A stretch of DNA of 64,000 nucleotides from Bacteroidales bacterium. Its GTDB lineage: Bacteria; Bacteroidota; Bacteroidia; Bacteroidales; F082. Under the pieces are notes generated by a model. It was not told where the DNA came from. It searched no databases and saw nothing but the letters and a program-made list of their open reading frames with translations. Made by a program: the position numbers and the translations under genes. The DNA lies in assembly GCA_017531225.1 (NCBI GenBank), contig JAFXLL010000011.1, positions 62,001 through 126,000 on the forward strand, read 5' to 3'. Positions within the stretch are counted from its first letter, which is position 1, and each line of letters begins with the position of its first letter. Positions 46,930-64,000 of the stretch are shown piece after piece.

Positions 46930-47181
46930 ATGAAACACACCTATTATCCACAAGGCACCTGTAGCCAGGTAATCGAATTTGAAATCAACGACGGGGTTGT
47001 CCACAATGTGCAGTTCTATGGAGGCTGCGACGGCAACACACAAGGCGTGGGCCGCTTGGTGGAAGGCATGAAGGCGGATGAAGTCGTGCAACGGTTGGAG
47101 GGCATCCGCTGCGGCTTCAAGGCTACCTCATGTCCGGATCAGCTGGCGAAGGCAATTCGTCAGGCGATGGGAGAGGGGTGA
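46930..47181 (+). CDS. TSCPD domain protein (TIGR03905)
   Basis: An 83-residue protein homologous to the C-terminal TSCPD domain of adenosylcobalamin-dependent ribonucleotide reductase: YYPQGTCSQVIEFEINDGVVHNVQFYGGCDGNTQGVGRLVEGM, GIRCGFKATSCPDQLAKAI with the TSCPD word (here TSCPD exactly). The conserved cysteines may bind a metal; the standalone protein has no known function. The start ATG at 46930 gives the family N-terminus. Its last 59 bases overlap the convergent helicase gene. Confidence 0.93.
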   Translation: MKHTYYPQGTCSQVIEFEINDGVVHNVQFYGGCDGNTQGVGRLVEGMKADEVVQRLEGIRCGFKATSCPDQLAKAIRQAMGEG

Positions 47182-49693
47182 CAAACAATCCGTCACGCTT
47201 CAACTCGGTCAATACCATTCTGATCTCTCCAAAGTCGAATTCATCGCCAAGCACGTCTTTGGCGGCACCGATTGAAGGGTCTTCTGTCGATTCAAAATAG
47301 TCGCGGATGGTGTTGTAATGTGCCTCGCTGACAAATTGCTGGGCATCGTAAAGGTCCTGCTCGATGAATTTGGCTAAATGACCGTAAATGGTAGAGATCT
47401 TCAGTCCGCGCTTCTTAGCGATTTGTTCAGGGCTCAGTCCTTCCTCAATCATGTTTTTGGTGATCTCGTAGGTGCTGATTTTGGGCTCTTTTGGGGACTC
47501 TTCTTTGGACTCATCCGTGGCGTTTTCAGGCTCTTCTAGGGAGGGCTCTGGAGCTTCAAGCGTCTCCAAATGAATGCCTTGCTGACCTAAAGATCTCAGA
47601 ATGATGTCTAGTATTTCGGCGCCAAACTGCTTCACTCGCTTGTCGCCCATGCCTTTGATGGCTTTGAGATCGCGCAAGGTGACGGGCTTCTCCTTGGCGA
47701 TGGCCTTGAGTGCCATGGTGGGAACGATCCTATAAACCTCAACATCCAGCTCGTCAGCCCTTTCTGCCCGCCAAACGTAAAGCCGCTTATATAAAGAGTT
47801 ACCTTTCAGGTCGTCTTTGATGGATACTTTGGCCTTGGACTTCTTGTCTGATTCCAATACAGCTACCGCCTTGGCTTGCTGGTATTCCTTGATGCTAAAG
47901 CCCTTGCAGCAGGCAGCCAAACAATTTTGCTTTATTTGAAGGTCCTCTTTAAAATGTTCCAGTGCCTCGGTGAGCAGCTCGTTGATGGCCTTATTGTCGG
48001 TTTTGAACGGGAGTTCGAAAAAGCCTTCGGTGAGATTGTCGAGCTGTCCCTTGAAATAGACAGCACCTTTGGTAAGGCGTTCCTGAAGCATGGTATTCTC
48101 CTCGCAGGAAGGCATTTGGGTATGGAGCTTTCTGACCTGTCCCTCGAACTTGGAACCGACGCCGCAAAGGGTCTCTAAAAACTGGTTTCGACGTTTCGAG
48201 AGGTCTTGGATCATGTCAGCATCAAACAAGGTGTTGTTGTCGTAAAGGATTTTCATCACCTTGCCGAAGGCCTTGTAAAGACCGTAGAAGTCGATGAGTT
48301 CCAGCATTACTTCCAGCTCGTAGTCGTGGCGCAGCCGATCAACTTTCTCTTGGGTGGGTTCCAATTCTGGGATATGATCGACAAACTGGTTCACTGAGAA
48401 ATCGTTCACCAAGGCGCTCGACGGGATGCGGGTCTTCAGTACCAGTCCTTCCAATGAGGTGCATCGGCTCAAAGCCACATAGACCTGACCGTGGGCGAAG
48501 GCGTGACCGGCGTCGATGATGAGTTTGTCGAAGGTAAGGCCTTGGCTTTTGTGGATGGTGACGGCCCAAGCCAGCCGCAGTGGGATCTGGGTGAAGCTGC
48601 CGATCTCGTTTTCTTCGATATTTTGGTTCTCGGCGTTGATGCTGTATTCCATGTTCTGCCAAGTGAGTTTCGTCACGGTGAGGATTTCATCGCCGCATTG
48701 AACTTCCACATTGCCTTGGTCTTTGTCGATGCCGACGATACGTCCGATCTTGCCGTTGAAGAATGCTTTCTCGGGGCTGGGATCGTTTTTGGTGAACATC
48801 ACCTGGGCGCCGATTTTCAGTTCCAGTTTTTCCTTGGTGGGGAAGGTGTTCTCAGGGAAGGTGCCTTTGATGTCTGCATCGAAGAAAACGGATTTGGACG
48901 GAAGTGCTTCCAGTTTCGACTCGTTGATCTCGTCGGCTTGGAAGTTGTGCGTGGTCAGGGTGATATAGCCTTCGTTGTCATCAGGATGGAAGTCGGGGAG
49001 ATAGCGTTGGTTGAGGAGTCGCAGGCATTCGGCATCCATGCGGTTGTCGCGCACCTTGTTGAGCAGGGTGATGAAGTCCTCGTCGTGTTGCCGATACACG
49101 TGGTCGAGTTCCACGCAAAGGTAAGGCGTTTTTTGCAGGACGTGACTACCGAAGAAATACACGTTGTTGTAATAAGGGGCAAGGATTTCCCATTCCTCGG
49201 GCTTGGCCACGGGAGCCAGCTGATACACGTCGCCAATCATCAGAAGTTGCACGCCACCGAAGGGCTTCTGTGACCTCCTGGCACGTCGCAGCACCGCATC
49301 GATGGCATCGAGCACGTCAGCCCGGACCATGCTGATCTCATCGATGACGAGCAAGTCGAGGCTTCGGATGATGTTAAGCTTGCTCTTCCTAAGTTTTTGA
49401 TATTGTGAAGCCAGGGCTCGGGCATTGGGCTTGGGAGATTCGTTTCCATCTTCGGGAATCTGTGGCCCGAAGGGAAGCTGAAAGAAAGAGTGTATGGTCT
49501 GTCCCCCCGCATTGATGGCGGCCACGCCGGTAGGGGCGACCACCACCATGCGTTTATAGGTCTTGGCGCGCAGGTTTCTCAAAAAAGTGGTCTTTCCGGT
49601 CCCCGCCCTTCCCGTCAGGAAGATATGCGAGTCGGTATAAAGCACCAGTTCCTCTGCAAACTCAAGTTTCTGATTGGTAAAATATTCCTGCAT
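47123..49693 (-). CDS. PIF1-like helicase with HRDC and C-terminal helix-turn-helix domains
   Basis: An 856-residue SF1 helicase. The N-terminal PIF1/RecD-like core has Walker A FLTGRAGTGKTTFLRNL, VVVAPTGVAAINAGGQTIHSFF, the Walker B region LLVIDEISMVRADVLDAIDAVLR, GGVQLLMIGDVYQLAPV and, near 390-410, AVTIHKSQGLTFDKLIID with VYVALSRCTSL. An HRDC domain lies near 645-700 (LYKRLYVWRAERADE...LRDLKAIKGMGDKRVKQFG) and an HTH domain near 760-830 (EITKNMIEEGLSPEQIAKKRGLKISTIYGHL), joined by an acidic linker. This architecture is common in Bacteroidota and is thought to act in replication restart or repair. Its promoter is a minus TATATTTG at 49716-49723. Confidence 0.92.
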   Translation of the reverse strand: MQEYFTNQKLEFAEELVLYTDSHIFLTGRAGTGKTTFLRNLRAKTYKRMVVVAPTGVAAINAGGQTIHSFFQLPFGPQIPEDGNESPKPNARALASQYQKLRKSKLNIIRSLDLLVIDEISMVRADVLDAIDAVLRRARRSQKPFGGVQLLMIGDVYQLAPVAKPEEWEILAPYYNNVYFFGSHVLQKTPYLCVELDHVYRQHDEDFITLLNKVRDNRMDAECLRLLNQRYLPDFHPDDNEGYITLTTHNFQADEINESKLEALPSKSVFFDADIKGTFPENTFPTKEKLELKIGAQVMFTKNDPSPEKAFFNGKIGRIVGIDKDQGNVEVQCGDEILTVTKLTWQNMEYSINAENQNIEENEIGSFTQIPLRLAWAVTIHKSQGLTFDKLIIDAGHAFAHGQVYVALSRCTSLEGLVLKTRIPSSALVNDFSVNQFVDHIPELEPTQEKVDRLRHDYELEVMLELIDFYGLYKAFGKVMKILYDNNTLFDADMIQDLSKRRNQFLETLCGVGSKFEGQVRKLHTQMPSCEENTMLQERLTKGAVYFKGQLDNLTEGFFELPFKTDNKAINELLTEALEHFKEDLQIKQNCLAACCKGFSIKEYQQAKAVAVLESDKKSKAKVSIKDDLKGNSLYKRLYVWRAERADELDVEVYRIVPTMALKAIAKEKPVTLRDLKAIKGMGDKRVKQFGAEILDIILRSLGQQGIHLETLEAPEPSLEEPENATDESKEESPKEPKISTYEITKNMIEEGLSPEQIAKKRGLKISTIYGHLAKFIEQDLYDAQQFVSEAHYNTIRDYFESTEDPSIGAAKDVLGDEFDFGEIRMVLTELKRDGLFVTPLPSPDELPSPADPDMR

Positions 49694-62581: not shown

Positions 62582-63127
62582 TTATAGGTCTCCTTCTAAT
62601 TTAAGTTCAATCTGTAACTTCCTGAGTTCGGGATGGGCTTCGGCCAACTTCTCGAATTTTTCCTTGTCGGTATAGGCTTCGATGGCCGCGGGTTTATCCA
62701 TCACCTCAGGAATCAGGTCGTATTGGTTGTTGTGTAATGTGTTTTTCAGGTGGCTGCGCAGTGCGGTCATGCCCTCGGCGTCACTCTCGAATAGTTTGTT
62801 GTCGACATGGAAATGGATTTCCTTTTCACCTTTCAACTCAGGCTTGTATTTGCCCAAGCCTGCGGCAAAGTTCGGTGAGATTTTCTTGTATTTGCTGACG
62901 AAGTCATTCCATGAGGCTTCGAGCTGTTCTTGTGTAAATGGGGTGTCCCATTTAGGCTCTTCCTGCTCATCTTGCTTGTTGGCTTGCTCCAGGCTGTTGG
63001 TGATGGAGATGGTGCTGCCACCGCCACGTTGACGCTGACGAGGTTCGCTGACCGAATGGGAGCTAACGACGGGAGCTGGTTCCGTAGCTGGAACAGGCTT
63101 AGGTTGCGGTTGTGGTTGTGGTTGTGG
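62582..63127 (-). pseudogene. dnaX: dnaX C-terminal (tau) portion, cut off by an in-frame TAA
   Basis: This 181-codon stretch is in the same frame as the dnaX part upstream and has no stop until 62582. It begins in the Pro-Gln linker (PQPQPQPQPKPVPATEPAPVV), then a Ser/Arg/Gly-rich connector, and ends in the C-terminal domain (WDTPFTQEQLEASWNDFVSKY, ELKGEKEIHFHVDNKLFE, KLAEAHPELRKLQIELKLEGDL) which matches the ends of Bacteroidota DnaX proteins. It would be part of the protein but for the single TAA at 63128-63130. There is no good start codon in it except a TTG at 62857. I call it a stranded portion, not an independent gene; it may still be made by read-through. Confidence 0.72.
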
Positions 63128-63211
63128 TTATGGTTGTGGTTGTGGTTGTGGCTGAGATTGCGGTTGTGGTTGTGGTAGTGGTTGTGGCTGTGGCTGTGGC
63201 TGCGGTTGTGG
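63101..63211 (-). repeat. Hexanucleotide repeat coding Pro-Gln linker in dnaX
   Basis: On the minus strand a run of CCACAA-type hexamers codes for alternating Pro and Gln, with interruptions (Leu, Ser, CCG). Length changes by six bases keep the frame. The TAA at 63128-63130 sits inside it. Confidence 0.85.
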
Positions 63212-64000
63212 GTTTGGCTTAGGAGTGGGAGCACTGACAGTGGCTTGGGGCGGATTAACTCCGCCCAGCGTAGGGTTTGGCGCTGCAGGTGTTTGTGCAA
63301 ATGCACACATTTTCATCAAGTTGACCTCCAAGTGAAGCCTCTTGTTGCCGGCATTTCGGTAGTCGATGTCGCATTGATTGTTGATATCCAACGCCTTGAC
63401 CAGTTGAGGCAAGGGATAGCGGGCTGATTGCTCAATGTAGCGTTGCCTTAGCTGCTCACTGACCTCGAGCAATTGCGTGGTGGCAGCGTCCTTGCTCACC
63501 AGCAGGCTCCTCAGGTGGTTGCCCATGCCGGTGATGAAGTGCTGCGGCTCGAAACCTTTATTAATGATGTCATTGACAACCAGCAGGATGTCGCTGGTGT
63601 TGCCTTGCAGCACATCGTCCACAATGCGGAAGTAATAGTCGTAATCGAGCACGTTGAGATTGTCGATGACGGCTTTATAGGTGATGTTCTTTCCGGAGAA
63701 ACTCACCATCTGGTCGAAGATCGAAAGTGCGTCACGCAAGGCTCCATCAGCCTTTTGGGCAATGATGTTTAGGGCCTCAGGCTCGGCATCGATGCCTTCC
63801 ATCTGGGCTACATGGGCCAGATGCTTCTCAATATCTTCGATAGTAATACGCTTAAAATCAAAGATTTGGCATCTTGAAAGGATGGTGGGGATGATCTTGT
63901 GCTTCTCGGTAGTGGCGAGGATGAACTTGGCATACGCCGGCGGCTCTTCCAAGGTCTTCAGAAAGGCGTTGAAAGCCGCTGTACTGAGCATGTGGACCTC
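63128..64000 (-). CDS. dnaX: DNA polymerase III gamma/tau subunit, 5' partial, ending at a premature TAA
   Basis: The AAA+ clamp-loader subunit. The frame is open to the right edge, so the N-terminal Walker A part lies outside the window. Visible: EVHMLSTAAFNAFLKTLEEPPAYAKFILATTEKHKIIPTILSRCQIFDF (domain I, including the SRC sensor), domain II with GIDAEPEALNIIAQKADGALRDALSIFDQMVSF and domain III helices (LLVVNDIINKGFEPQHFI, HLEVNLMKMCAF). It then enters a Pro-Gln linker and stops at TAA (63128-63130) where the repeat predicts CAA (Gln). The product would resemble a gamma form without the tau C-terminal domains. An error, a mutation or a deliberate short form are all possible. Confidence 0.88.
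   Translation of the reverse strand, partial: EVHMLSTAAFNAFLKTLEEPPAYAKFILATTEKHKIIPTILSRCQIFDFKRITIEDIEKHLAHVAQMEGIDAEPEALNIIAQKADGALRDALSIFDQMVSFSGKNITYKAVIDNLNVLDYDYYFRIVDDVLQGNTSDILLVVNDIINKGFEPQHFITGMGNHLRSLLVSKDAATTQLLEVSEQLRQRYIEQSARYPLPQLVKALDINNQCDIDYRNAGNKRLHLEVNLMKMCAFAQTPAAPNPTLGGVNPPQATVSAPTPKPNPQPQPQPQPQPLPQPQPQSQPQPQPQP

Follow-up and report, generated by a model that had tools for sequence, protein, structure and literature searches.

The in-frame TAA that interrupts dnaX in the window (i.e., the whole stretch of 64,000 nucleotides analyzed here) is very probably either a recent nonsense change private to this genome or a consensus or base error, in an otherwise intact gene, and we weight a base error and a true polymorphism about equally. 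A conserved gamma/tau split by an in-frame stop codon does seem to exist in the Bacteroidales, in another family, where the codon is UAG and the genus is g209 rather than the genus of the window; the window TAA is not part of this g209 UAG system.

The first-pass annotation had described dnaX as open from the right edge of the window to an in-frame TAA embedded in a CCACAA repeat, with a gamma-like part upstream and, downstream in the same frame, 181 stop-free codons encoding a normal-looking DnaX C-terminus, and this description held throughout (Table 1). On the minus strand, the TAA at 63130-63128 is flanked on either side by perfect CCACAA units, and it lies in an array (63102-63211) to which Tandem Repeats Finder assigned a 6-bp period, 18.3 copies, and 84% matches, which qualifies this part of the gene as simple sequence. 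When the whole contig is read, the gamma piece is complete, with 418 aa from its ATG; it scored 739 bits against NF011531/PRK14971 (cut-off 685), and the Pfam families DNA_pol3_delta2, DNAX_ATPase_lid, and DNA_pol3_gamma3 all exceeded their cut-offs. The frame beyond the TAA stays open to a second TAA at 62584-62582, and the encoded piece aligned to NF011531/PRK14971 at positions 453-612, with a score of 57.6 bits (E 1.1e-15) that is far below the whole-protein cut-off, its last 144 codons forming the conserved tau C-terminus and showing no decay. This piece matched no Pfam family at E<=0.01 and the C-terminus matched no solved structure at E<=1, so that a role in polymerase binding would be assigned to it by analogy with E. 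coli. The uninterrupted tau frame that is the norm in the genus is thus absent from the window dnaX. No second full dnaX was found in the genome (G000), which gave one match to the C-terminal piece and one match above cut-off to the N-terminal model, and a search of a plasmid collection returned no match.

Table 1. Positions of the dnaX features discussed in the text; the first five rows are in window coordinates
Feature	Position	Strand	Sequence or locus	Basis or remark
In-frame TAA in the dnaX Pro-Gln repeat linker	63128..63130	-	window	reading frame; again '1 TAA' in whole-genome searches
dnaX gamma-like region, 3' part, and first part of linker	63131..64000	-	window	gene starts beyond the window, at ~G000:C8:126384
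dnaX same-frame continuation: rest of linker and tau C-terminus	62582..63127	-	window	181 codons + TAA
Tau C-terminal domain, conserved and undecayed (144 codons from STISI)	62585..63016	-	window	codon alignment with six relatives
Imperfect 6-bp tandem array containing the TAA (CCACAA on the minus strand)	63102..63211	.	window	Tandem Repeats Finder
TAG in L092	2404-2406		JAFSKP010000079.1	
TAG in L094	3724-3726		CADAQX010000008.1	
TAG in L109	3736-3738		CAMOFI010000018.1	
g209 dnaX locus L249	246531-248252		G510:C7	
TAG after GGA in L218	1501-1503		L218	
Variant loci			L344, L350, L353, L355, L356, L358	genomes G633, G672, G623, G592, G594, G625

The stop is not shared by the relatives that we searched. 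The tau C-terminal piece was found in 93 of 100 genus genomes, and in 90 of these 93 a single stop-to-stop frame, 544 aa or longer, contains it. The exceptions are G000 itself, G089, where a contig end truncates the gene, and G085, where the frame is broken in the N-terminal part (contig C2, locus L186, around locus position 1930, minus strand). The G085 break, apparently a small deletion, lies in a draft assembly and gives a sample of the background of broken dnaX in genomes of this kind. G000 was alone among the 93 in having a stop in the linker, and a search of 174 genomes of the family, with the full tau of a relative as the query, showed an internal stop only in G000 among the matches listed, which were those stronger than about E 1e-167 in a family where many assemblies are incomplete. 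A TAA shared with close relatives, which the first-pass annotation had proposed to look for, therefore occurs in no other genus genome searched and in none of the family matches listed. As the genomes searched included no second member of the window's species, the privacy of the TAA is established above the species level. Across the genus, unbroken dnaX genes have stop-to-stop frames of 544 to 964 aa (e.g., G050, G084, and G048), lengths that may include upstream extension, and the linkers differ strongly in length and content even among near relatives.

Constraint on the C-terminal domain behind the stop was normal. For these 144 codons, dN/dS was 0.045 between G000 and its nearest relative, G097, 0.039 between G000 and G036, and 0.034 between G097 and G036; the same pairs gave 0.022, 0.023, and 0.028 in the N-terminal 359 codons. 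At columns of the codon alignment that are invariant in the other six sequences, G000 carries no private residue in either the N- or the C-terminal part. On the G000 branch, the C-terminal domain has accumulated ~5 nonsynonymous changes versus ~97 expected under free drift since the split, as estimated from three-way counts that were split by hand with branches assumed to be equal. Such an undecayed C-terminus implies that the stop is young, bypassed, or not real, and we infer a young stop in a species whose normal product is still full-length tau; a short-lived stop would look identical if read-through were working or if tau had truly been lost not long ago. A fixed loss, in which gamma suffices for the species and the C-terminus is going to decay, would agree with a stop that has no visible bypass, but it is highly improbable given the normal constraint on the C-terminus and the restriction of the linker stop to one of the 93 genus genomes.

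Local sequence quality is informative about the possibility of an error. The G000 assembly looks good (14 contigs, 98.4% complete), and the nearby genes were compared with those on a 74-kb contig of G097. Of the 55 non-overlapping ORFs there that encode 100 aa or more, 27 had a homologue in G000, within 104 kb and at an identity of 60% or higher (12,658 codons). Only dnaX stops well inside; no frameshift was seen in the 27 genes, and no best match covered less than 90%. A second broken gene suspected at window positions 47120-49693 is just two codons shorter at its end than its G097 counterpart. These observations argue against error-rich sequence, and an error-filled assembly was not borne out in the 27 genes compared; a lone error may still be present, as may a polymorphism within the sample. 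The linker is where either would most likely fall, as it contains 20 of the 46 sites in dnaX at which a single C-to-T step creates a stop, though it makes up only 96 of the 599 sense codons. The array itself looks young, since the linker of G097 is a shorter, different Pro/Gln sequence that lacks the CCACAA array. Very probably, one Gln position in this young hexanucleotide array has recently mutated to TAA, or has been miscalled. Should the TAA be present in the cell, translation would stop after 418 aa to give a gamma-like clamp-loader subunit, and the tau C-terminus would then be made only via background stop leakage or in cells whose array differs.

The repeat could also serve as a switch, in which slippage or recombination adds or drops the stop unit in frame and gamma-only and tau-making alleles coexist. 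The perfect units on both sides of the TAA, the frame-preserving unit length of six bases, and the wide variation of linkers among relatives are all features that such a switch would use; however, the one sequence at hand holds a single allele, the array is short and imperfect, and loss of tau, which is costly in E. coli, should be costly here as well, so that we regard a switch as very unlikely. Programmed or otherwise useful read-through of the TAA, with gamma made by stopping and tau by reading on, is extremely unlikely in our view. Both the frame and the C-terminus are intact past the TAA and another Bacteroidales genus seems to use UAG in this way, but the stop is absent from the genus relatives and from the family matches listed, it sits in an ordinary repeat lacking the motif that trails UAG in g209, and the 41 tRNA places located in G000, all of them typed, include none with the TTA anticodon that would read UAA. 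Nor was an A-run or slippery site seen near the TAA, and the tau frame is unchanged across it. The first-pass annotation had left three options side by side, namely a base error, a strain polymorphism, or a gamma/tau switch by read-through or repeat recombination; the private stop, the undecayed C-terminus, and the mutation-prone Gln array favor the first two, while the unshared stop, the missing A-run, and the lack of a UAA-reading tRNA weigh against conserved read-through. More generally, Gln-rich repeat linkers accumulate codons that are one step from a stop, and a stop there in a single genome says little.

The g209 arrangement differs in being conserved. Among 80 dnaX loci examined, ten closed frames of 367-413 aa were seen, and in three of these ten (L092, L094, and L109) dnaX ends at TAG, the same frame stays open for 199-202 codons to the tau C-terminus, and the peptide after the TAG starts with I-A-R-S-P-Q-A-E-H (3/3). 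A site pattern allowing 2 mismatches matched one of 393 genomes drawn from the order, and a slightly wider pattern allowing 3 mismatches was applied to 190 genomes of the family to which this one belongs. It matched 61, all of them in g209 and one (G672) of a variant kind treated below; the reversed control pattern had no match in those 190 genomes. With the tau query, '1 TAG' was reported in most of the g209 matches listed and in none of those listed for the other genera of the family. We fetched 111 g209 dnaX loci, one per genome from a genus of ~120 genomes by table count, and in 105 of the 111 gamma ends at a TAG that is followed by ATWGC, with the other six arranged otherwise; nine g209 genomes outside the 111 gave seven weak and two partial matches. 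From the UAG to the end of tau, the frame is open in frame 0 in 103/103 complete g209 genes, compared with none in +1 and two in +2, and nine loci of the genera g224 and g230 have a single open tau frame. Counting against this pattern, one g209 genome, G570, has beside its UAG gene a second dnaX match (G570:C222:7207-8328) with a 621-aa frame without a stop, which may be contamination; the assembly is listed as 5% contaminated.

A constrained motif, UAGAUWGCNAGN, follows gamma in g209. Because the 105 genes were gathered by TAG plus ATWGC, that part of the motif is partly conserved by selection of the genes, although only six variants were excluded in this way. The first codon after the UAG is never ATC in the 105 genes, though ATC accounts for 1725 of their 3129 Ile codons; the second is GCA in 98/105; and the third, which lies outside the gathering criterion, is AGA or AGG in 104 and AGT in one, though CGN accounts for 2832 of 3143 Arg codons. 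Codon choice, and not the peptide alone, thus seems to be held after the UAG. For 84 near pairs, pooled pN/pS rose from 0.20 in gamma to 0.48 over the last 130 codons and 0.69 in the linker; these ratios are inflated by high pS (0.47-0.66).

Downstream of the motif, a small hairpin is likely, a weaker claim than that of the motif. The best stem in the 20 bases from +11 starts at +12 or +13 in 101 of 105 genes. Within this 20-base segment, which was picked after the sequences had been viewed, a stem score of at least 9 was reached by 99/105 genes (vs 318/840 neighbouring windows and 0.396 of shuffles), at least 10 by 69/105 (vs 210/840 and 0.190), and at least 12 by 44/105 (vs 103/840 and 0.102). 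The arms vary by species and occur in shifted registers (CGCC/GGCG, GCC/GGC, and GTCC/GGGC), and for this reason stems were scored sequence by sequence. MAFFT/RNAalifold returned no consensus structure for the element, mutual information gave no clean helix, and an Rfam search with four g209 loci produced a single match, far below the gathering score.

UAG is a normal stop codon in g209, with no change of the genetic code: TAG terminates 22 of the 103 tau genes and, across 200 kb of G510, 19 of the 113 long ORFs, and RF1 was found above cut-off and without internal stops in 8/8 g209 genomes. No CTA anticodon was found at the 45 tRNA places of G510, where tRNAs in unassembled parts could be missing. 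Reinitiation behind the UAG appears less likely, as an in-frame ATG, GTG, or TTG precedes the last 120 codons in 101 of 103 genes with no position, measured as distance from the UAG, common to more than 10, a count that is a weak test because linkers vary in length. Judging from these sequence comparisons, g209 probably makes gamma and tau by programmed read-through of one conserved UAG with a 3' RNA element, and a few species may have switched to a +1 shift. The element would consist of UAGAUWGCNAGN, then the small hairpin, and then a partly conserved block, and the simplest mechanism would be near-cognate decoding of the UAG aided by this element.

The six g209 genomes of the variant kind have a gamma frame that reads NNY AGG CNT AGC TAG and then stops, while their +1 frame stays open for 195-232 codons and carries a related motif, making it possible that a +1 frameshift at NNY AGG C takes the place of read-through. 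In a gamma tree built without L251 and three named duplicates, the UAG (104) and variant (6) genes formed one group separate from the nine single-frame genes, and the six variants fell at several places inside g209, with support of 0.043 at their common node. The +1 site of the yeast element Ty1 is CUU AGG C; the variants, with NNY AGG C before the +1 tau frame, appear to be alike in the heptamer only, and Ty1 is unrelated to g209 dnaX.

Other dnaX arrangements in these searches follow a different pattern. Seven of the ten closed frames have an A10-A11 run near the stop, and in six of these seven the tau C-terminus follows in another frame, with the contig of the seventh ending first. Two-ORF-like Bacteroidota genes with an A10-A11 run just before the gamma stop and tau in another frame were seen at L071, L083, L089, L107, L108, and L117, and genes with the same run and a long open other frame at L448-L451, L453, and L454. 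The order-wide search gave six matches besides G000 with an internal stop among the matches listed, and of the eight loci fetched from it (six with a stop and two with a short frame), 6/8 (L448-L451, L453, and L454) have an A10-A11 run plus a long ORF in another frame. The dnaX of G336 stops at its natural end, and that of G204 (contig C45, L452) ends at a TGA in the linker, with neither an A-run nor a long same-frame continuation.

Several known systems offer comparisons. Genes with in-frame stops that are kept under purifying selection have been described in prokaryotes, with the stop required in at least two genomes as a guard against errors (PMC7918605). The window dnaX resembles them in having a stop within a gene of low dN/dS, and its stop, seen in one genome, would be removed by that filter; the word dnaX is absent from the main text of that source. 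In E. coli, one gene gives a gamma-like N-terminal product and a longer tau (PMC5009743), and in this it resembles the window dnaX; its gamma, however, comes from the tau frame by a -1 ribosomal frameshift at a shift-prone A AAA AAG site, whereas the window carries an in-frame TAA that is private and has no shift-prone site with it. Two-ORF dnaX genes with poly-A, where tau needs recoding, are described among 17 fs-genes (PMC3711429); they share with the window a zero-frame gamma stop with the tau C-terminus downstream, but in them an A-run precedes tau, which is encoded in a different frame, while the window dnaX keeps its frame and has no A-run. It is the Bacteroidota loci with A10-A11 runs that resemble this two-ORF type. 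The routes to gamma and tau given in these sources are frameshift, slippage, and proteolysis (PMC5009743, PMC3711429), and we found no report of UAG read-through at the dnaX gamma/tau junction in the open-access literature searched. If the reading of g209 is correct, its genus-wide UAG and constrained motif would add another route and would make dnaX an example of an important bacterial gene with a naturally occurring, conserved read-through site, an arrangement that would belong with the known cases of dnaX recoding.
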